Assembly (NCBI RefSeq): GCF_000737715.1 | Contig: NZ_JPRN01000001.1 | Coordinates: 248,001-312,000, forward strand | Direction: 5' to 3' | Length of the DNA stretch: 64,000 nucleotides | Source: Chryseobacterium sp. JM1 | GTDB lineage: Bacteria > Bacteroidota > Bacteroidia > Flavobacteriales > Weeksellaceae | In this document: one piece after another, positions 14,780 to 47,276 of the stretch | Position numbering within the stretch: the first letter of the stretch is position 1 | Layout: every line of letters starts with the position of its first letter | Made by a program: the position numbers and the translations under genes | Notes under the pieces: model-generated | What the model saw: the letters and a program-made list of their open reading frames with translations, nothing else | Databases searched by the model: none | Told to the model about the DNA's origin: nothing

Positions 14780-14807
14780 AGATATTCTGGTCAGATGATA
14801 CAAAAAT

Positions 14808-14832
14808 AGCCCTATAATAAAAATAAAGGGCT
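14808..14832 (-). terminator. Hairpin terminator
   Basis: AGCCCT (14808-14813) pairs with AGGGCT (14827-14832), with an A-run on its left side (U-run in the minus transcript). It ends the 14847-15596 gene. Confidence 0.6.
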
Positions 14833-14846
14833 GCTAATGACTCAAA

Positions 14847-15596
14847 TTATTTTGTCTTATGATCCGGGAATGATGCGGTGACTTCTCCTTTGTCATTATA
14901 GAAATCAAGTTTTGCATTATTTTCTTTATCAATATAGAACATTGCTTTGGGCATTCCTTTGTCGTCAAATAAAAAGAGGCCGTTATTTTCACCTCTGGAT
15001 TTCCCAAGCATAATTCTCGGAGCGCCTCCTATCAGGTTCTTTTTTACATAGTCGTCATACTTTTGCTGCATGGCTTTAGGATCTTTTTTCCGGAGGTCTT
15101 CAAGCTCTTTCATAATTTCGGAAGTTTTCATTTGTGATTCTTCTGAAGGACGGTCATTAAAAGCAAGACTGCTGGACACAAACCGTTTGCCCCCTTTTGT
15201 ATAATCCTGAGTTAAAAGTTGCATTACCTGATCTCCGTCGTATTGATCATAGGTTAATGATAAACCTGAGCTATGTCCGTTTTCCTTTTTTTGCCCGTCA
15301 TAGATAAATCCACCACACTCAATACCATCTTCATTAAAAAACAGCATTCCTGAACGTTTTTTCCGGCTTTCATTGGTTGGTCGGGTATTGATTTTATCGT
15401 TTCCGTTGGGAAACCGGTCAACATTGGTAATGATCATTTTCACCGTGCCGTCTTTTTCCACGATATTAATTCTTTCGGCATCAATTTCCGTGAATTTTTG
15501 ATTTCCGTTTGTTTTAAAAGCTGAGGTCGTCAGGAAAACCATTCCGATTACTGTTGCAAAAGCAAAAGCCCTTAGAAAAATCAATTCTTTATTCAT
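14847..15596 (-). CDS. Hypothetical membrane-anchored/exported protein
   Basis: 249 residues. One hydrophobic N-terminal segment (residues ~7-27, FAFATVIGMVFLTTSAF) acts as signal or anchor. The exterior part repeats short beta units around 'G..(L/M)FF(D/N)..G' (GMLFFNEDGIECGGFIYDG, GLFLFDDKGMPKAMFYID), suggesting a beta-rich fold. No catalytic motif is seen. It resembles hypothetical proteins common in flavobacteria; the function is unknown. Confidence 0.7.
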   Translation of the reverse strand: MNKELIFLRAFAFATVIGMVFLTTSAFKTNGNQKFTEIDAERINIVEKDGTVKMIITNVDRFPNGNDKINTRPTNESRKKRSGMLFFNEDGIECGGFIYDGQKKENGHSSGLSLTYDQYDGDQVMQLLTQDYTKGGKRFVSSSLAFNDRPSEESQMKTSEIMKELEDLRKKDPKAMQQKYDDYVKKNLIGGAPRIMLGKSRGENNGLFLFDDKGMPKAMFYIDKENNAKLDFYNDKGEVTASFPDHKTK

Positions 15597-15701
15597 AGTG
15601 TTGTTATATTGTACAAGACAAAACTATTCAGATATTAATTTATCTTCAAGCCAAAACTAATAAGCCAGGGAAAAATTCCTTTGAATAAGGGAATTCTGGG
15701 G

Positions 15702-15785
15702 ATGAATTATTTATTAAGAACACGATGATGACAGGGAAATCGTTCTTATACAGATTAAGTATCACATGAAACATCATCCCAATCC
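15702..15785. repeat. Left copy of 84-bp direct repeat flanking R-M cassette
   Basis: This matches 19987-20070 along its whole length with six differences by eye. Read on the minus strand it contains the last ~9 codons of DUF4272 (WDDVSCDT, stop) plus ~54 downstream bases. The frame stays open further upstream (about 27 codons to the next stop) but shows no further DUF4272 similarity. Weaker similarity continues toward 15677. Confidence 0.9.
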
Positions 15786-16387
15786 GGGTTCTCTGAAAAC
15801 GAGACGTAATCAGAGAGTTTGGTTTGATTTTGAACTTTTTTTACTATTAATTTATTTTCTCATGATTTCAAATTCAAAAAGGAATGAATGTATCCGCTAA
15901 AAAAATGAGTTTAATTTATGACAGATCAAATAGATTGCTAACCTTGAATTTGACAAATTGACAAATAACATAATACGACAAGTTTTGACGTTGTTACATT
16001 ATAAATTTGCCACATTAAAAGATAAATAAAGCAAAAGAGTTTAAAAATAAAATCTTCTTAAAATAATAATTGAACTTTTATTTTGATTACTTTTGCCGTT
16101 CTTTTGTATGCTTTCCCTGTTAATCAAGTTGACTTTCCTATATAATTTGGCTCACTACTTTTTGCATTAGCACCATTATTGTTAGATTTGTCAAAGATGT
16201 CGAAAAAACAAGCTTATGAAAGAAATATTTGAAATATATCCGTAACTAAGATAGATAATTTGTTTTAGTATTATACATTTATCAATATATCTTATCACAA
16301 TTGAAAAAAAACAAAATAAATGTATAAAGTGAAAAGATGTAAATCTTTACTATTTCTAACCTTAAAGAATTGAGACACAGGTTTTAG
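15786..16387. other. AT-rich non-coding left arm of the R-M cassette
   Basis: No convincing gene on either strand in about 600 bases; only short stop-riddled frames. It contains a TGACAAATTGACAAAT direct repeat (about 15953-15967) and a TACTTTTG -7-like octamer at 16088-16095. It probably holds decayed or regulatory DNA brought in with the cassette. Confidence 0.45.
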
Positions 16388-16417
16388 TTGAAGAATTACA
16401 GAAATGACGTATATTTA
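16388..16417 (+). promoter_or_regulatory. Candidate promoter of the R-M operon
   Basis: TTG (16388-16390), a 19-base spacer and TATATTTA (16410-16417) fit the Bacteroidota pattern TTG-N19-21-TAnnTTTG except for the last base. Predicted leader about 85 bases. Confidence 0.4.
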
Positions 16418-16470
16418 TAAGAAAAGGAGGGAGTTACTTTTAGCAGCTAAAAAAAGTTAATATACTAAGA

Positions 16471-16506
16471 ATGAAAAAACTAACAATAAGTCTAAAGGAG
16501 TTTTAA
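16471..16506 (+). CDS. Possible 11-residue leader peptide before the methylase
   Basis: ATG AAA AAA ... TTT TAA encodes MKKLTISLKEF and stops 3 bases before the methyltransferase ATG. Its last codons contain AAAGGAG (16494-16500), a Shine-Dalgarno-like sequence 9 bases ahead of the methylase start, unusual for this phylum. Translational coupling is an inference; the frame is short enough to arise by chance. Confidence 0.3.
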   Translation: MKKLTISLKEF

Positions 16507-16509
16507 TGT

Positions 16510-17565
16510 ATGATAGGAGCATCATTATTTTCAAGTGCAGGCATAGCTGAAACTTACCTTGAAGAAGTAGGAATTAATATTGTTGCAGCCAATGAATTAG
16601 TTCAGGAAAGGGCTGACTTATATCAGGCATTGTACCCTAGTTCTAAAATGATTGCAGGAGATATTTTAAATGAAAATGTTTTTAAAGCACTTGTAAAAAG
16701 CACCCCCAAAAAATTAGATTTCCTAATTGCATCACCACCTTGTCAGGGAATGAGCGTGGCTGGAAAAAACAGGAATATTGAGCAAATGCTCGAGGATGAA
16801 AGGAATTATCTTGTTTTTAAAATTATTGATTTTATTAAGTTAAAATCACCTGATTTTATATTAATTGAAAATGTACCAACATTTTTCAAAATGGTTTTGC
16901 CTTATGAGAACAAACGTTTAAAAGTTATTGAAATTTTAAATCTGTTATTTGGAAAAGAATATAACATTGAGGCTAATGTGTATGATGCTTCTGAATATGG
17001 TGTTGCCCAAAGACGAACAAGAGCAATTATAAAATTATACCTAAAAGGTAAAAAATGGAGACAACCTTTAAAGTATGAAAAACAAATAACCGTAGAAGAA
17101 AAGATTGGTTTTCTACCAAGTATTGAAGCAGGGGAAAAATCAAAAATAAAATGGCATTTTGCCAGAAAACATTCGGATAATCACGTAAAGTGGTTGAAAC
17201 ATACGCCAACAGGAAAAACGGCTTTTGAAAATGAGAAGTATTTTCCGGTAAAACCAAATGGCGAAAAAATCAAAAGTTACAATACAACATATAGGAGAAT
17301 TAAGTGGGACGAACCTGCACCAACAATTACAATGCGTAACGATGCAATCAGTTCACAACTGAATGTGCATCCAGGTAGAAAATTAAAGGACGGAACTTAT
17401 TCTGATGCAAGAGTTTTAACTCCTTTGGAATTAATATTGTTGTCTTCTCTTCCACAAGATTGGAATATTCCTGACAATACACCTGAATTGCTTATTAGAA
17501 AATGTATCGGAGAATGTATTCCACCTTTGTTAATTAAAAACATTGTTGCTCAAATAAACCGATAG
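16510..17565 (+). CDS. DNA (cytosine-5) methyltransferase of R-M system
   Basis: 351 residues. The m5C motifs are in order: motif I-like GASLFSSAGIAE at the N-terminus, motif IV PPCQG with catalytic Cys78, motif VI ENV (120-122), motif VIII QRR (167-169) and a C-terminal motif X-like CIGECIPPLLIKNI. The target-recognition region lies between ~180 and 300. It is first gene of a tight three-gene operon (6 bases to the endonuclease). It protects one strand of the recognition site, by inference. Base composition is AT-richer than the neighbouring core genes, consistent with transfer. Confidence 0.95.
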   Translation: MIGASLFSSAGIAETYLEEVGINIVAANELVQERADLYQALYPSSKMIAGDILNENVFKALVKSTPKKLDFLIASPPCQGMSVAGKNRNIEQMLEDERNYLVFKIIDFIKLKSPDFILIENVPTFFKMVLPYENKRLKVIEILNLLFGKEYNIEANVYDASEYGVAQRRTRAIIKLYLKGKKWRQPLKYEKQITVEEKIGFLPSIEAGEKSKIKWHFARKHSDNHVKWLKHTPTGKTAFENEKYFPVKPNGEKIKSYNTTYRRIKWDEPAPTITMRNDAISSQLNVHPGRKLKDGTYSDARVLTPLELILLSSLPQDWNIPDNTPELLIRKCIGECIPPLLIKNIVAQINR

Positions 17566-17571
17566 TATAGT

Positions 17572-19020
17572 ATGACTTTAAGAATTGAAAGTAAAAAGTG
17601 GATTTTATATCGACACACGAGGGATTTTGATAAACTATGTGTTGTTGCTGAATTTTTGAAGTCATATTCTAAGACAGGAATTTCAACATATGAGAAAACA
17701 CAATTAAATTTAAAGTTGCGTGAATTGGAATTATATAGTGAAAGAAATCCGGAATTACCGCTTGATGCAATAAATCATAAAATTAATCAGCTTTCATATT
17801 ATATGTTTGGCTACCAAGCCAAAATTGACATGGAGGACCGTTTTTTGTTCAGTCCACTTGGCAACTTGTTTTTGAAATATGTTGAAGATAAAGAAAAAAA
17901 AGCCAAAATATTTCTTACAATGCTTTGGGCTGTTCAATATCCACACCCACATAGCGGAACAGATAGAGAATTTCAACTTTATCCATTTCGTTTAATTTAC
18001 AAATTGCTTTCAGAACCAAAACTTTCAAACAAACTCTATGCGTTTGAAGTTGCTTATTCTGTTGTATTTCAAAAAGAAGTAACTAAAACATCATATGATG
18101 TTTTAGTAAATGAGTTACTGACATTAAGAAATTTTTCAGACGAAGAAATTGCTCAAAAATTTCAAGAAGATAGACACGTTTATGTGAACTCCTCATATGA
18201 ATGGGATTATTATGTTTCAAGTTTGTTTGAAAGTGCAGGTGTATTGGATAAAAAAGACGGAGTAGTTATCACTAAATTGCAACACGGAAATAAAAATACT
18301 TTCCGAAAAATAACACGAAACGAAGTTTCAATTCCTGAAAATTTAATACAATTAGTTCAACAGTTGGAAATCGAATATTCGTTTTTAGAAAAACCATTGT
18401 TGCTTAATGATCCTGAACAACTGAAAATTGACGTTATTAAGGAAATGTACAGTTTCTATCCGAAAATGCTTTTGATCGAAATTGGAGAAGTTGCCGACGA
18501 TATCAAATTTGAATTGCTTAATCTGCCGAAACTTATTGAACAATATGCTAATAATAATGAAGGAGCAGAAGCATATCTTTTTGAAGATGCTTTAGCGGAT
18601 GGTTTCAATATGTTTTACAATGTAGAAGCTGAAAAAGTTGGAGGAGCGGGAAACACAGATTTAGAATGTATATATATTCCTAAAAGGAAAAAGTTTGCCG
18701 TTGATGCAAAGTCCACAAAAAACAAACTTTCAAGTGTAAACGCAGGAAGATTGGAAGGTCATCGAGAAAAAATTGGGGGTGCTTACACAATTGTAGTTAC
18801 ACCAAGATATGTTCCAGCGGTTCTTCAAGATATTCGAACGAGTCCAATAGTCATTATTCGTGCAAACACTTTTTCAGAATATTTGTACAACTGTATTAAC
18901 AATGATATAAGAGAAATTGACTATGAAGATTTTGATGACATTATTATCAATAATCTTGGTAAAGACATCAGTAAAAACATTTCTGATTTGACGATTTCAA
19001 GGTTTGCAACAAAACAATAA
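17572..19020 (+). CDS. Type II restriction endonuclease (PD-(D/E)XK, type IIS-like)
   Basis: 482 residues encoded between two methylases. The C-terminal domain carries a PD-(D/E)XK-like core: Asp363 in GNTDLECIYI and Asp378-x-Lys380 in KFAVDAKST, followed by helix and strand (GAYTIVVTPRY). The N-terminal ~300 residues are helical and probably contain the DNA-recognition part (FLFSPLGNLFLKYV near 95). This split and the two companion methylases suggest an enzyme with an asymmetric site that cuts outside it, as in FokI/AlwI-like enzymes. The specificity cannot be read from sequence. Confidence 0.82.
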   Translation: MTLRIESKKWILYRHTRDFDKLCVVAEFLKSYSKTGISTYEKTQLNLKLRELELYSERNPELPLDAINHKINQLSYYMFGYQAKIDMEDRFLFSPLGNLFLKYVEDKEKKAKIFLTMLWAVQYPHPHSGTDREFQLYPFRLIYKLLSEPKLSNKLYAFEVAYSVVFQKEVTKTSYDVLVNELLTLRNFSDEEIAQKFQEDRHVYVNSSYEWDYYVSSLFESAGVLDKKDGVVITKLQHGNKNTFRKITRNEVSIPENLIQLVQQLEIEYSFLEKPLLLNDPEQLKIDVIKEMYSFYPKMLLIEIGEVADDIKFELLNLPKLIEQYANNNEGAEAYLFEDALADGFNMFYNVEAEKVGGAGNTDLECIYIPKRKKFAVDAKSTKNKLSSVNAGRLEGHREKIGGAYTIVVTPRYVPAVLQDIRTSPIVIIRANTFSEYLYNCINNDIREIDYEDFDDIIINNLGKDISKNISDLTISRFATKQ

Positions 19021-19029
19021 AATTTGCTT

Positions 19030-19773
19030 ATGATTACAATTACGAGGGAGGATAATATGCAATTAATGGCAAGGTATCCAGACAACTATTTCGACCTTGC
19101 TATAGTTGATCCACCCTATGGGATTTTGAATAAAACCAAAAGAGGTGGAGATTATAAATTTAATAAGGATGAATATAGTCAATGGGATGTAAAACCGAAT
19201 GATGAGTATTTTAATGAATTATTTCGAGTTTCGAAAAATCAAATCATTTGGGGAGGGAACTATTTCGGACAACTTTGGCTAAGAAGTGAATATAACAAAG
19301 GTTTTATTGTTTGGGACAAGAATCAGCCTGAAACCCTGAATAATTTCTCAATGGCAGAAATGGCTTGGTCATCATTAGACAAGCCTTCTAAGATTTTTAG
19401 ATTTAGTGTCAGAAAGAATAGAAATAAGATTCATCCAACTCAAAAGCCAGTTGAACTCTATGAGTGGCTTTTGAAAATGTATGCTAAAAAAGGAGATAAA
19501 ATTTTGGACACTCATTTAGGAAGTGGAACTATTGCTATTGCCTGCTATAACGCTGGTTTATGTTTAACCGCTTGTGAAATTAGTGAAAACTATTATTTGA
19601 AAGCTTTGGATAAAATTAAGGAAGTTATTCCAGAATCTACTATCCATACAAACGATTTAGATGTATTTTCCATGACATTTCCTGAGCAAATAAAATCCGA
19701 AAATAAATTAGACATAGATATACAATACAAAGAGCAAGTAGAACAACTTAGATTATTTCAAGAAGAGAGATAA
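19030..19773 (+). CDS. DNA adenine-N6 methyltransferase of R-M system
   Basis: 247 residues from the ATG at 19030; a TTG six bases earlier would extend it by two residues. Motif IV DPPYG (27-31) precedes the SAM-binding motif I (DTHLGSGTIAIAC, ~150-162), the beta-class order. HPTQKPVELYEWLL is the motif X region. DPPY-type beta-class enzymes usually methylate adenine N6, though N4-cytosine is not excluded. It starts 9 bases after the endonuclease stop, so it belongs to the same transcript. It would modify the strand not handled by the cytosine methylase. Confidence 0.92.
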   Translation: MITITREDNMQLMARYPDNYFDLAIVDPPYGILNKTKRGGDYKFNKDEYSQWDVKPNDEYFNELFRVSKNQIIWGGNYFGQLWLRSEYNKGFIVWDKNQPETLNNFSMAEMAWSSLDKPSKIFRFSVRKNRNKIHPTQKPVELYEWLLKMYAKKGDKILDTHLGSGTIAIACYNAGLCLTACEISENYYLKALDKIKEVIPESTIHTNDLDVFSMTFPEQIKSENKLDIDIQYKEQVEQLRLFQEER

Positions 19774-19928
19774 GGTATTACAAAAATAAAGCATAACATT
19801 ATTTAAAAATAATGTTAAATAATTTATTGTCGATTAACTTTATTATTTCATTTTGAATTAGATAAAGGATAAAGGATAAAGAAAGGAAAGAAAAATGTTA
19901 TAAATTATAATCTATTTTAGAAATTTAC

Positions 19929-19957
19929 CTCGTACAAAATCATGTACGAGTTTTTTT
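19929..19957 (+). terminator. Terminator of the R-M operon
   Basis: CTCGTACA / TGTACGAG 8-bp stem, 6-base loop, followed by seven T. An additional AT-only inverted repeat (AACATTATT...AATAATGTT) lies at 19795-19816. Confidence 0.85.
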
Positions 19958-19986
19958 ATCCGTGAAGATTTCTTTGAATTTAGGAA

Positions 19987-20070
19987 ATGAATTATTTATT
20001 AAGAACACGATGATGCCTGTGAAGTCGTCCTTACACAGATTAAGTATCACATGAAACATCATCCCAATCC
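19987..20070. repeat. Right copy of 84-bp direct repeat (3' end of DUF4272 gene)
   Basis: Partner of 15702-15785. This copy is the genuine 3' end of the DUF4272 gene (stop at 20040) plus its downstream flank. The two copies bound about 4.2 kb carrying only the R-M operon. Confidence 0.9.
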
Positions 20071-20699
20071 TGATCCATATAGGTGATCAGCCAGTTTAAG
20101 GCATAATGTCTTTCATACACAATCCCCGAATCTATTGTCTCCATTTCAATGTTGTTGATGCGGGCATCTACGCAGGCCCAGTCGTATCTGTAATATAAAT
20201 CGGCGGCATCTAGGATTTCAGATTTTGAACGGACTTCATACTTTCGATTGATGAAATCATTGGGATTGAGTTCTCCACCCACAGGATAATGCTCCGCCGG
20301 AATATCATTCAGATCACATAGTTCATTGGGAAAAGGTAGGGTGTCAACGATTTTTAGGGCCCAAAATAAAACCCAGATGCATTCACATTTCCAGCTTTCC
20401 TGAGATTTTTTGTGTTCTGTAGGATCGTTTAAAAAATCCTTTTCGTCCGGAGTCACAGAGTCCCAAAGATCATGCTCTTTAAGATAATCAATGGCCTCTT
20501 CCGGCTCGATGGAATCAAAAGCGATAAGGTTGGTGACAGCAAGAACGGTCAGCCTTCGCGCGATCTCTTCAGAAGTTCTCAGGGTGGTTTCTTCTGCCGT
20601 TTCTATATTGGGAAGGTTGAAATTAATTTTAATCCCTTCTTTTTTGAGGATTTCCTCAGTTCTTTCTTTTCGTGAAAGGCCTTCTTCGTTGATGGACAT
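20040..20699 (-). CDS. DUF4272 domain-containing protein
   Basis: 219 residues. Family hallmarks: N-terminal RKERTEEILKKEGI, central SWKCECIWVLFWAL and FPNELCD, then YYRYDWACVDARIN, VYERHYALNWLI and the conserved end WDDVSCDT. Function of the family is unknown; soluble, no signal peptide. The 3' end of this gene is the sequence duplicated on the far side of the R-M cassette, so it served as the apparent insertion target while staying intact. Confidence 0.9.
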   Translation of the reverse strand: MSINEEGLSRKERTEEILKKEGIKINFNLPNIETAEETTLRTSEEIARRLTVLAVTNLIAFDSIEPEEAIDYLKEHDLWDSVTPDEKDFLNDPTEHKKSQESWKCECIWVLFWALKIVDTLPFPNELCDLNDIPAEHYPVGGELNPNDFINRKYEVRSKSEILDAADLYYRYDWACVDARINNIEMETIDSGIVYERHYALNWLITYMDQDWDDVSCDT

Positions 20700-42005: not shown

Positions 42006-42240
42006 CAGAACGGTTTAAATCTATTTGCTTCGTTCACTAACCGTTACATCATTCCCGGCATTCCACCTCCCATTGTCATAGCAGGTTCAGCGCTCTTCAC
42101 TTCAGTGATCACACATTCAGTGGTAAGAAGCATTCCGGAAACAGAAGCTGCATTTTCAAGAGCAACTCTTGTTACTTTAGCTGGGGCAATGATTCCTGCT
42201 TCAAGCATTTGAATATATCAGTTCGTTTTAGAATTGTATG
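42006..42240 (-). pseudogene. groEL 3'-end fragment, copy 1 (longest)
   Basis: Minus strand. 42044-42240 aligns to the last ~65 codons of groEL, with about five differences over the first ~130 bases and then decay toward 42240. The half-hairpin CAGAACGGTTTA at 42006-42017 is what remains of the groEL terminator. It has no start and the resident gene is intact elsewhere. Confidence 0.92.
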
Positions 42241-42417
42241 TTGTCTTTCAAAATGTTTTTCCTTCAAATTGATTTATTCTATTGGCTCAAGCCAGGAGAC
42301 ATTGCACTGCGAGGTGTAATCGAAACTTTTAATTAAAATACAATTTTCTACCGAAGCACAAAACGTGAATCTTGCATTTTAGCCCGCCTAGCTCAAAACC
42401 CATATTAGAGGTAGTGC
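42241..42417. other. Structured spacer downstream of the DUF3883 gene
   Basis: No gene. A GC-richer stretch (CGAGGTGTAATCGAAAC, CTCAAGCCAGGAGAC, TTAGCCCGCCTAGC) contrasts with the AT-rich cargo. It may be a recurring intergenic element; no att or integron core could be assigned. Confidence 0.4.
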
Positions 42418-43101
42418 TTATTGTTTCCACATTTTAGCTCCAATTCTTTCCTCTATTTGCAATGTTTCATTTAGTTCATTTGTCCAAATATTTGTGTCGA
42501 AATTGAAACTAAAAACTTCAAGTCTTGGATTAGTCAAAGCATTAGTAACGATACACAACTTATAATGTGTCTTTTTTTCTTTTGAGTTTTTATATTCGTT
42601 AGGTGTTAATTCTATTGATGAAATATTTCCTGATAAACCTTTTACTTCTAATAATAGTGTCTCATTAATATTGGTTGCCTCTAAGTCCCAACCTACGTTA
42701 TCTTTTTCTTTGGATATAACTATGTAGTCTAATCCTTCAAAGTATTTGATGGTAGTTTCAATTGCAGAAATTTCTACTTGTTGCTTTTTGAAAATGTCAA
42801 CTTGACGCTGTAAAGGTTTTGTATTCTTGTTGTTTCTTTCAATAGAGTAGTTTCTAAATTTTACAAACGCATTAAAATGACTTGAATAATCTTTTTTAAA
42901 ATTTTCTGGTTTATCAATTAGATTGCGAATATGATTTAGATTTGTATTAACATCATAAATTCCTTCTCCTGGCAGATTGAATTGTTTGTTAAGAGCATTT
43001 AGCCCTGTGACATATTGTGTTCCTGTTGTCAAAGGGTTTTTGGTCTTATGAGAAATGTAGATTGTCTCCAACCAAACTTTAAATTTTTCTGCTGTTGTCA
43101 T
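42418..43101 (-). CDS. DUF3883 domain protein (nuclease-like), groEL-array cargo
   Basis: 227 residues from the ATG at 43101. The upstream Met at 43134 overlaps the -7 promoter element and is rejected. The C-terminal ~110 residues match DUF3883: EISAIETTIKYFEGLDYIVI, NVGWDLEAT, LLLEVKGLSG and IELTPNEYKNSK, with the D...E-x-K arrangement of PD-(D/E)XK nucleases. DUF3883 domains often accompany restriction and defence genes. The N-terminal ~100 residues contain SHKTKNPLTTGTQYVTGLNA. It lies between groEL fragments 1 and 2. Confidence 0.82.
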   Translation of the reverse strand: MTTAEKFKVWLETIYISHKTKNPLTTGTQYVTGLNALNKQFNLPGEGIYDVNTNLNHIRNLIDKPENFKKDYSSHFNAFVKFRNYSIERNNKNTKPLQRQVDIFKKQQVEISAIETTIKYFEGLDYIVISKEKDNVGWDLEATNINETLLLEVKGLSGNISSIELTPNEYKNSKEKKTHYKLCIVTNALTNPRLEVFSFNFDTNIWTNELNETLQIEERIGAKMWKQ

Positions 43102-43135
43102 AAAATTTCGTGTTTTTAGCATTACCGCTAACATT

Positions 43136-43143
43136 CAAATTTA
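43136..43143 (-). promoter_or_regulatory. -7 promoter element of the DUF3883 gene
   Basis: Minus strand TAAATTTG, an exact TAnnTTTG match 35 bases before the chosen ATG. Surrounding bases (CGTAAATTTGAATGTTA) resemble those before the 45399 start (GCGTAAATGTGGATGTTA). Confidence 0.55.
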
Positions 43144-43216
43144 CGTATTACATCCATATACAATATACAACGACGAATAAAATTTAAGGTAAAAAGTCAA
43201 TTAGGCTTTCTGTATA

Positions 43217-43386
43217 AAAAAACCGCCCCACAAAAGCAGAGCGGTTTATATATTTAAAGCATCGTTGATGACTACATCATTCCCGGCATTCCACCTCCCA
43301 TTGGCATAGCTAGTTCCATCACTCTTTACTTCAATGATCACACATTCAGTGGTAAGAAGCATTCCGGAAACAGAAGCTGCATTTTC
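43217..43386 (-). pseudogene. groEL 3'-end fragment, copy 2
   Basis: Minus strand. 43273-43386 matches the last ~38 codons of groEL but has a one-base insertion that breaks the frame. The downstream hairpin (AACCGC...GCGGTT, 43220-43248) matches the groEL terminator. The break at 43386 lies 19 bases from the stop of the 43405 gene. Confidence 0.94.
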
Positions 43387-43404
43387 GAAATATATTCTTT
43401 AAAA

Positions 43405-43962
43405 TTAAAACTTTTCGTCGGCTCCTTTTTGTGTTGAATTGTATTCAATTAATGTAGCGAAGGCTTTTTTCAATCTTTCAACTAAAGCTTGGTCAGCTGT
43501 AAAATTAAATGGAGCAGAATAGTCATCATAGTTAGGTCCACTAATCGACAAGAAATCTTTTTCGGTACCATACTCTTTTCCTTCCAATACGGTATTAACT
43601 AATTTTTTCCCAGTCACATAAAAATCTTTTGAATACTCATTATTCATTCCTTTAACTGTGTTTAAATCGATTGTTGTAAAATACCATTCGTTCATTGTAG
43701 CCTCCTTTTTATAAACAAAAATGCCATTGCTGTAAGAAACAAAGTGTCTAAAATCGCCTAATGTCCCGGCTAAATTTTCTTTCATTTTTCCACCAATCCA
43801 ATCCATGGTTTCCTGTTTGGTGGGTTTTGCGGTTTTGTTTTCAGTGGCTGCTTTGGTAGATTTTGCAGTTGTTTTCTTTTGGGCATTTACACCCATGCTT
43901 GCAACTGTTACTAGTAGTACAATTGCCAGCTTTAATTGTCTGGTCATAGTTTTAAGTTTCAT
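43405..43962 (-). CDS. Hypothetical exported protein, groEL-array cargo
   Basis: 185 residues. Signal peptide RQLKLAIVLLVTVASMGVNAQ; start could be Met6 (43947). A Lys/Thr/Ala-rich linker (28-48) precedes a domain containing MDWIGGKMKENLAGTLGDFR and YYFTTIDL-like strands, and a Lys-rich C-terminus. Unlike the other cargo it is exported. Unknown family. Confidence 0.7.
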   Translation of the reverse strand: MKLKTMTRQLKLAIVLLVTVASMGVNAQKKTTAKSTKAATENKTAKPTKQETMDWIGGKMKENLAGTLGDFRHFVSYSNGIFVYKKEATMNEWYFTTIDLNTVKGMNNEYSKDFYVTGKKLVNTVLEGKEYGTEKDFLSISGPNYDDYSAPFNFTADQALVERLKKAFATLIEYNSTQKGADEKF

Positions 43963-44154
43963 TGAATGCTTACTACTGTTGTGGGGTGTCTGTTCAGCTT
44001 ATTTCCCTGTATTCATGTTTAATATTTTTTTATAGAATTTCGTTTTTACTAAACGACTTCAATAATTTATATGGTTTGCAAATTTATAAATTGTTTTAAT
44101 TGGCCAATATACTATTTATTACTTATTGCAGAATAGTTAACCAAAATACACAAC

Positions 44155-44289
44155 AAAAAAACCGCCCTATAAAATAGAACGGTTAGTATATTAAATTGTC
44201 TCAGCGACACGCTGTTACATCATTCCCGGCATTCCACCTCCCATTGGCATAGCAGGCTCAACGCTTTTCACTTCAGTGATTACACATTC
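44155..44289 (-). pseudogene. groEL 3'-end fragment, copy 3 (shortest)
   Basis: Minus strand. 44215-44289 matches the last ~24 codons and stop of groEL with three differences. It is followed by a diverged groEL-type hairpin at 44159-44184. It is the fragment nearest the resident gene. Confidence 0.94.
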
Positions 44290-44340
44290 AACATTAAGCG
44301 GGACTATTGCAAATATCATGTTGCAAGCAGCTATTCTGTA

Positions 44341-45399
44341 CTAAAGCTGTTTCAAATCTTTCAAAGCATTTGCTGTCAAGTGAATGTTACTTGTTTTGAC
44401 TTTGGAATACGCTTCAAGCAGATTGTAAGTAGCATTGTAAATATTTCTAAATTGCTGTGTCCTCGCGTCAAAACGGTCATCTATAGAAACGTCAAGATTC
44501 TTAAATAGCCGGTCAATACGTTCTATCCACTTTTTATCTTCAGGTTCCTCCGAAAAGTAAATCTGTTCAAACTCTTTAAAGCCAATGACTTCAAATTTTC
44601 TATCAGTATCATTTGAAGCTTTCTTAATCATCATGTCACCCAATGCAGACTGCCAATCTCTAAAAATCCATGCTTCAACTCTCGACATTTCTCTAATTAC
44701 AGTTTTAACAGTTTCGTTAATAACTTCTATATCAATTTTTGGGCTGTTGATTGTTGTGCAAATTAAATGACAGACTTCTTTCGCCAAGCATTTCTTTCCT
44801 TCATCTGATAAATTAAGGGCGATTTCAACATTTTCTTTGAAGCAAAGCTCATCAATAGCTTTTTCAATGTCTACACCTAATTTATTCCTTTGCTCTGATT
44901 GAAGTTTATCAATTTTTAAATTCCAATGTTTGGCTAAATTTTCTAAAATTGATTGCTCAATATGTTCACCATCAGCCAGACTTTTTTCAAATCCGGTTAT
45001 AGCTTTTTCAAGTTGTTGATAGTCGTCGGTTGTGTCAACCTCAATGTGAGATAGCTCAATTTTAGATGCCCGTATCCAGCCAATCAGAGCGAGGATTCTG
45101 TAAACAGAGCTCACATATTTATAATTGTTATAAAAATTTTTAGGTGTAACGTCAAGCAAAAAGTAGCCACGAAAAAATATTTCTTTAATTCTGTAAAGCA
45201 ATGCCACTGAAGACATCATCAATGGATTAGCATACTTTCTGAAAGTTTGTCTCCGTTTGGCTTTAGAGCTCCTTTTTTCTGTCAGGATTGGAAACCAAAA
45301 GTCTTTCGTCAAAATTGTCAAAATGGAAATGCCTGCTCCAATAATAGCAGCGATTATTGCTCCAATAGCAGCATCTGGTATTTTTAGAAGTGTCCACAT
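44341..45399 (-). CDS. Hypothetical membrane-anchored protein, groEL-array cargo
   Basis: 352 residues from the ATG at 45399 (MWTLLKIPDAAIG). A GTG at 45420 lies within the promoter and is rejected. One N-terminal membrane segment (GAIIAAIIGAGISILTIL), then ~300 cytoplasmic, mostly helical and charged residues (KRSSKAKRRQTFRKYANPLM, EAWIFRDWQSALGDMMIKK). No recognised domain. It is the cargo next to groEL, with its promoter in the groEL downstream region. Confidence 0.75.
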   Translation of the reverse strand: MWTLLKIPDAAIGAIIAAIIGAGISILTILTKDFWFPILTEKRSSKAKRRQTFRKYANPLMMSSVALLYRIKEIFFRGYFLLDVTPKNFYNNYKYVSSVYRILALIGWIRASKIELSHIEVDTTDDYQQLEKAITGFEKSLADGEHIEQSILENLAKHWNLKIDKLQSEQRNKLGVDIEKAIDELCFKENVEIALNLSDEGKKCLAKEVCHLICTTINSPKIDIEVINETVKTVIREMSRVEAWIFRDWQSALGDMMIKKASNDTDRKFEVIGFKEFEQIYFSEEPEDKKWIERIDRLFKNLDVSIDDRFDARTQQFRNIYNATYNLLEAYSKVKTSNIHLTANALKDLKQL

Positions 45400-45417
45400 A
45401 TAGTTGCTTATAACATC

Positions 45418-45425
45418 CACATTTA
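45418..45425 (-). promoter_or_regulatory. -7 promoter element of the 45399 gene
   Basis: Minus strand TAAATGTG, one mismatch to TAnnTTTG, about 19 bases before the chosen ATG. The context is shared with the DUF3883 gene promoter. Confidence 0.45.
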
Positions 45426-45545
45426 CGCATTAAGTGAATATACATATATACAGTTGCGCTAATGTTGTTTTGGTTTTAGCTGTCTATTTATTAATTATTA
45501 AATTTAAAATATAAATATACTGTTTCCTTACGGAAAACCATAAAA

Positions 45546-45582
45546 CAAAAAAACCGCCCTGCAAAAGCAGAGCGGTTTTTTA
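45546..45582 (-). terminator. groEL terminator (parent of the repeated hairpins)
   Basis: AACCGCCCTGC-AAAA-GCAGAGCGGTT hairpin with A-runs on its left (U-run in the minus transcript). Related hairpins follow groEL fragments 2 and 3, and half of one follows fragment 1. Confidence 0.88.
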
Positions 45583-45605
45583 TATATTGTTGTAAGCTTA
45601 CGCTA

Positions 45606-47276
<1,671 letters not shown>

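Follow-up and report, generated by a model that had tools for sequence, protein, structure and literature searches.

A Type II restriction-modification (R-M) operon of Chryseobacterium sp. JM1 lies between two direct copies of the 3' end of a DUF4272 gene, and the operon is absent from the same locus of related genomes. We consider it probable that a tRNA-Glu hot-spot fragment carrying the operon was inserted at DUF4272 and that 84 bp of target were duplicated. As we picture the event, the fragment, 4.2 kb in length, would have entered between DUF4272 and the gene downstream of it; the 84 bp of target lying between two staggered join points would have ended up on both sides, and DUF4272 would have retained an intact 3' end. 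Positions given below refer to the window, the whole stretch of 64,000 nucleotides of contig NZ_JPRN01000001.1 that was analyzed, and the features of the locus are collected in Table 1.

Table 1. Features of the DUF4272 locus, in window coordinates.
Feature	Position	Strand	Description
249-aa gene	14847..15596	-	directly follows DUF4272 in five insert-less relatives
Left repeat copy	15702..15785	+	53 bp of downstream sequence and last 31 nt of DUF4272 (remnant); adjoins the 249-aa gene
Left edge of insert	15786..16000	+	decayed 3' part of a putative lipoprotein-like gene (112-121 aa) from Chryseobacterium hot-spot loci
HTH gene remnant	16183..16503	+	precedes the operon in relatives; no ORF left
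C5-cytosine DNA methyltransferase	16510..17565	+	Pfam PF00145, E 1.9e-56; PADLOC MTase_II, E 7.3e-144
Type II restriction endonuclease, 482 aa	17572..19020	+	PADLOC PDLC03533 REase_II, E 2.4e-171
N6/N4 DNA methyltransferase	19030..19773	+	Pfam PF01555, E 3.4e-18 (19024-19773); PADLOC MTase_II, E 3.6e-94 (19033-19773)
Right edge of insert	19871..19986	+	sequence adjoining tRNA-Glu in other Chryseobacterium; includes terminator-like hairpin
Right repeat copy	19987..20070	+	continuous with the intact DUF4272 gene
DUF4272 gene, intact target	20040..20699	-	Pfam PF14094, E 1.3e-68

The repeat and the sequence between its copies

A reading of this DNA made from the sequence only had proposed that the last codons of DUF4272, its stop and about 54 downstream bases recur as an 84-bp direct copy with six differences. 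The repeat is indeed there, and comprises the last 31 nt of the gene (stop at 20040, minus strand) and 53 downstream bases. All six differences (left-copy positions 15731, 15733, 15735, 15739, 15744 and 15749) fall among the 53 non-coding positions and none among the 31 coding ones; the identical runs within the repeat measure 29 bp and 36 bp. A repeat search extends the match to 95 bp at 89% identity. When the repeat was used as a query against its own genome, two places were found, with E values of 8e-44 and 3e-30. The next best match reached only E 0.23, so chance is not the explanation for the two copies.

Between the copies lies an insert of 4.2 kb (15786-19986) whose G+C content is 30.3%, against 36.5% for the window. 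It holds three ORFs, all of them R-M genes. The ORF list has no further frame of at least 60 aa in 15786-16509 or 19774-19986 and no recombinase, transposase or integrase ORF anywhere within the insert, which bears out the recombinase-free character claimed for it. A terminator belonging to the insert had been claimed as well, and a terminator-like hairpin stands at 19929-19950, detected in a search that returned 5 such sites in 5.2 kb where 2.2 were expected. The earlier description of the island as only the three R-M genes and flanks holds with regard to ORFs; it needs amendment in that the remnant of an HTH gene and edges resembling those of a hot spot are also inside.

Empty sites in related genomes

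At E 1e-60 or better, DUF4272 has a match in 23 of the 173 genomes of the genus, one in each. Neighborhoods were compared for 16 named Chryseobacterium loci (L035-L050), and the 249-aa gene was found directly downstream of DUF4272 in five: Chryseobacterium sp. OV279 (L036), C. oleae (L037), Chryseobacterium sp. OSA05B (L038), C. carnipullorum (L041) and C. vrystaatense (L042). All five named loci that keep both neighbors have a single copy of the repeat and no insert, and the left copy of the window aligns with this single copy. Taking away the insert and one copy leaves a gene-to-gene spacer of 53 + 105 = 158 bp in the window; the spacer between DUF4272 and the 249-aa gene measures 158 bp in OSA05B, 147 bp in both OV279 and C. 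oleae, 133 bp in C. carnipullorum and 140 bp in C. vrystaatense. The other 11 named loci are uninformative because the 249-aa gene is not directly downstream there; in C. herbae, a 251-aa gene follows DUF4272 instead. An uninterrupted relative with one copy of the 84-bp sequence, which the earlier reading had proposed to look for, is thus at hand in five named loci, and these empty sites support reading the locus as an insertion with long target duplication.

The same comparisons bear on the idea that DUF4272 was once duplicated in full and in tandem, and that the left copy eroded after the R-M genes had been inserted. The repeat itself, and nothing else, speaks for this idea. Two full DUF4272 paralogues in tandem, the finding that would have turned the sequence-only reading towards it, were seen in none of the relatives, given the one match per positive genome. 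Similarity in 15600-16520 does not go beyond the repeat: a tblastn search with the DUF4272 protein recovered only nine residues, all inside the repeat, and a blastn search with the remaining DUF4272 DNA only matches of 9-17 bases. The border of the repeat is sharp, and the bases adjacent to it come from another gene family. A decayed paralogue appears to us extremely improbable.

The R-M operon and its relatives

The methyltransferase and endonuclease genes are open and form one operon-like row (PADLOC PDLC03384, PDLC03533 and PDLC03386), as expected of a Type II R-M system. The start of the N6/N4 methyltransferase gene is placed at an ATG at 19030; the ORF list has a TTG at 19024. For the 482-aa endonuclease there was no match in Pfam, no family in NCBIfam, and no relative among solved structures (E up to 1), plasmids or phages (both at E 1e-5). 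A single-sequence structure prediction of this protein had a mean pLDDT of 33.7 and was discarded.

Among 320 genomes of the family, the endonuclease was found in six others, at 87-91% identity, and all six also have matches to the operon. Five of them (G284, G088, G093, G315 and G098) have 15-18 kb around the operon in common, at 94.7-98.8% identity. Seven proteins from L087 were submitted to Pfam: one comes from the HTH gene of the operon itself, four match relaxase, TraG, CTnDOT TraJ and DUF4134, one matches ParA-type ATPases and one has no match. Going by these matches, we read the carrier in the five genomes as one CTnDOT-like conjugative element. In the sixth genome (G198), the operon has another context. 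A draw of 395 genomes across the phylum, JM1 included, yielded the endonuclease at E 1e-6 in a single genome besides JM1 (G532), where the gene lies at a contig end beside chromosomal genes that, from a reading of their sequences, are apparently unrelated. Two minor observations concern these loci. The endonuclease gene of G098 is split into two overlapping frames (L085/L086, G098:C1:4913752-4915193). In addition, a palindrome-rich sequence of about 96 bp, 86% alike between L091 (3557-3652) and L133 (10251-10344), flanks the R-M operon on the left in one genome and on the right in the other; a likeness to cassette recombination sites is apparent by eye only.

An intact 108-aa gene leads the operon in L087, L091 and L133, and its product in L087 is an HTH protein by Pfam. 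In the window, this fourth, leading gene is decayed and only a remnant is left, with 77% identity over 87 bp at 16183-16259. The remnant gave no tblastn match; its local nucleotide alignment with L087 has a score of 73, where the best of 300 shuffles reached 36. The three enzyme genes have fared differently. Compared with L087 they show dN/dS of 0.03-0.07; dN is 0.04-0.08 against a dS of 0.69 or more, the synonymous sites of the last gene being near saturation. Such low dN relative to dS means that selection preserved the enzymes over most of the period since they diverged from these relatives, and does not imply present activity. With three enzyme genes open and long under purifying selection but the HTH gene lost, the cassette is probably functional.

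Edges of the insert

The insert comprises more than an R-M unit: judged by its edge sequences, it resembles a piece of a tRNA-Glu hot spot that lacks the tRNA end and the recombinase. For the left edge, taken as the 200 bp inside the left copy, counterparts of 169-222 bp with 72-77% nucleotide identity exist in G114, G004 (twice), G140, G192 and G156, and shorter ones in G152 (85%, 89 bp) and G146 (77%, 114 bp). The search behind these figures reached 126 of the 173 genomes at E 0.01, including many AT-rich chance matches; those with E below 1e-13, in seven other genomes, were followed. There, the counterpart is the 3' part of a 112-121-aa gene, which is truncated and decayed in the window. 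We read this gene as lipoprotein-like and its neighbors as being of toxin/immunity type; the one copy sent to Pfam had no significant family. The right edge, that is the last 116 bp before the right copy, has matches of 71-80% (a 38-bp match in L106 being left aside). At E 1e-5 it was found in seven other genomes, of which G156, G002, G070 and G176 were fetched, and G108, G137 and G173, with short matches, were not. A tRNA-Glu gene lies within 50-95 bp of this sequence at five of nine distinct places (five of eight genomes, the weak L106 match included), L109 and L121 being one place listed twice. Both edges occur 2-5 kb apart and in the same order, with different genes between them, in G114, G140, G156 and G152, and they occur together, weakly, in G004. 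Within the stretches fetched, no right edge was present near the left-edge loci of G192 and G146.

At the tRNA-Glu locus of JM1 itself, neither edge is present; the fragment therefore left no copy there, and its source would have been the hot spot of another Chryseobacterium. It is the edge sequences that point to this origin, since the operon lies inside the tRNA-Glu hot spot in no genome searched (of the six others, five have it on the conjugative element and one elsewhere). The R-M genes and the edges may have come together stepwise. A mobile element with fixed ends, whose edges would recur together as termini, was considered and rejected: one edge is the interior of a gene and the other adjoins tRNA-Glu.

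One could also envision that a tyrosine recombinase of the tRNA-Glu islands acted site-specifically at a secondary site and was later lost. An island of this sort exists in G156. It spans 11 kb at tRNA-Glu, is flanked by a 196-bp direct repeat of 95% identity (L121:3512-3707 and 14797-14991) that contains the right-edge sequence, and has two genes that look like tyrosine recombinases (by a reading of the sequences only). In comparison with four loci from three genomes, however, the right edge of the insert ends 50-54 bp short of tRNA-Glu, so that these bases and the tRNA 3' end, taken as the crossover core, are absent. Moreover, the left end of the insert lies inside a gene, and no recombinase ORF is present. 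The locus thus has neither the crossover core at both ends nor the recombinase of a tRNA-associated integrative island, and we judge site-specific insertion to be improbable. Because the insert lacks the stretch adjoining tRNA-Glu, and with it the probable crossover core, illegitimate joining is favored over the action of a site-specific recombinase. Such joining might have proceeded by microhomology-guided strand switching or by end joining.

The joins themselves were inspected for microhomology. At the right junction, a near-identical stretch is common to the hot spot and the target. Smith-Waterman scores range from 6 to 12 over 15 pairs (five right-edge genomes by three empty sites); of 20000 random pairs, 232 reach 9 or more and 7 reach 12 or more. 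This microhomology is suggestive only, since the windows compared were picked around the motif after it had been seen. At the left junction, the five donor copies score 10, 5, 8, 5 and 5, and microhomology there is not convincing.

Age and origin of the repeat

Dating of the duplication from the divergence of its copies, as the sequence-only reading had proposed, gave the following picture. Over the 95 bp, the copies differ from each other by 0.125 substitutions per site; the distance to OSA05B is 0.156 for the left copy and 0.190 for the right, and that to OV279 is 0.259 for either. The two copies are each other's nearest full-length relatives, a grouping with support of only 53% on 95 bp. 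Flanking genes show dS of 0.13-0.18 to OV279 and 0.20-0.60 to OSA05B. By these figures the duplication is of some age and may postdate the divergence from OV279; 95 bp carry no more than that.

These values also fit a different course of events, in which the incoming DNA already had the cassette joined to the DUF4272 3' end of a close relative. Entry of the cassette would then have combined homologous recombination within DUF4272 at one end with an illegitimate join (or the single crossover of a circle) at the other, and the copies would be alleles of two strains, with no duplication made here. The distance between the copies is like that between related strains (the 249-aa gene has a dS of 0.13 to OV279), the differences spare the coding positions altogether, and with perfect runs of the length noted above, host recombination is conceivable. 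Yet no second copy of the repeat was found in the DUF4272 loci compared from outside the JM1 genome, some of which span only 1.5 kb from the gene, and none of the six other endonuclease-bearing genomes among the 320 of the family has the endonuclease at DUF4272. A plot of DUF4272 identity to four relatives in 60-bp bins, judged by eye, likewise reveals no obvious foreign stretch. Furthermore, this course of events merely shifts the original insertion to another strain. On balance, we think it rather unlikely. We infer that the repeat arose at the insertion event, which may have taken place in JM1 or in a near relative that served as donor.

Relation to known systems

Insertion of R-M genes with long target duplication has reportedly been described in Helicobacter pylori and other bacteria, by Nobusato et al. 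in 2000 and Furuta et al. in 2010. The match to this idea that had been suggested for the JM1 locus holds good: R-M genes with no transposase or integrase are enclosed by target copies of about 100 bp (84-95 bp here) that are single in the empty sites. Papers that cite these two studies (PMC3031569, PMC3874152, PMC1643837) describe target duplications that are long, variable and of the order of 100 bp. Unlike these insertions, the present one resides in a Chryseobacterium chromosome, and recognizable pieces of a tRNA-Glu hot spot flank its R-M genes on either side. With CTnDOT-like conjugative elements carrying R-M cargo, the cassette shares its operon (the same in five loci, at 85% nucleotide identity, the HTH gene being seen in L087); however, no transfer genes lie between the repeats. 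As for tRNA-associated genomic islands, the edge sequences resemble such a locus, whereas the insert sits at another target gene and has neither a tRNA end nor a recombinase ORF. A literature search, with subscription papers mostly outside its coverage, returned nothing apparently relevant on this pattern in Chryseobacterium, Bacteroidetes or Flavobacterium, nor on homology-facilitated illegitimate recombination with microhomology or on groEL cassettes.

The locus is of value as a clean case of a proposed way for R-M genes to move whose mechanism is unexplained: empty sites, both junctions and a probable source of the inserted DNA are all available. As the edges are traceable, the join points can be read directly. 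The parallel with groEL is the more interesting lead.

groEL arrays

The sequence-only reading had likened the R-M cassette to a groEL array in the same window. This array is present at 42044-45801 and has the same succession of gene end, cargo and copy of the gene end: downstream of an intact groEL stand three cargo genes, for proteins of 359, 185 and 238 aa, and behind each of them comes a copy of the groEL 3' end. A NOV_C domain and weak matches to defence proteins (TmtA, HmaA) were found in the 238-aa protein; the 359-aa protein has no domain or defence match. We propose that one mechanism underlies both the R-M cassette and the groEL arrays. It is tempting to speculate further, as a tentative idea only, that duplication of a gene 3' end around cargo is a general, recombinase-free way for Chryseobacterium to acquire and then shuffle accessory genes, defence genes included. 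The end of the target gene would stay intact, and through the repeated ends, homologous recombination of the host could cut cassettes out, put them back and change their order; the R-M operon at DUF4272 would represent the one-cassette case and the groEL arrays the mature form. If the groEL arrays arise likewise, the genus offers many events for which duplication length, position and microhomology could be measured.

A 206-bp query from the groEL 3' end, for which four first-look candidates were scored per genome, matched 171 of the 173 genomes of the genus. At least two matches were found in 78 of these, and at least three in 33; second matches are sometimes far apart (50 kb in G080), and not every one need be an array. 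Self-comparison of 35 loci (657 kb) for repeats of 50-400 bp at a spacing of 0.8-15 kb gave 13 direct and 0 inverted repeats. This tally is not unbiased: repeats were part of the reason for choosing the loci, the window accounts for 7 of the 13, and tRNA genes are involved in several. Twelve further groEL loci (L134-L145) were fetched, nine on account of second matches close by and three because they ranked near the top of the list. In 11 of the 12, at least one further copy of the groEL end lies downstream (one of them weak, at 70%). The copies are direct repeats that enclose variable genes and start at varying points within groEL. Like cargo proteins recur in different combinations, as exemplified by a pair of 272 aa and 235 aa found in L134, L140 and L143.
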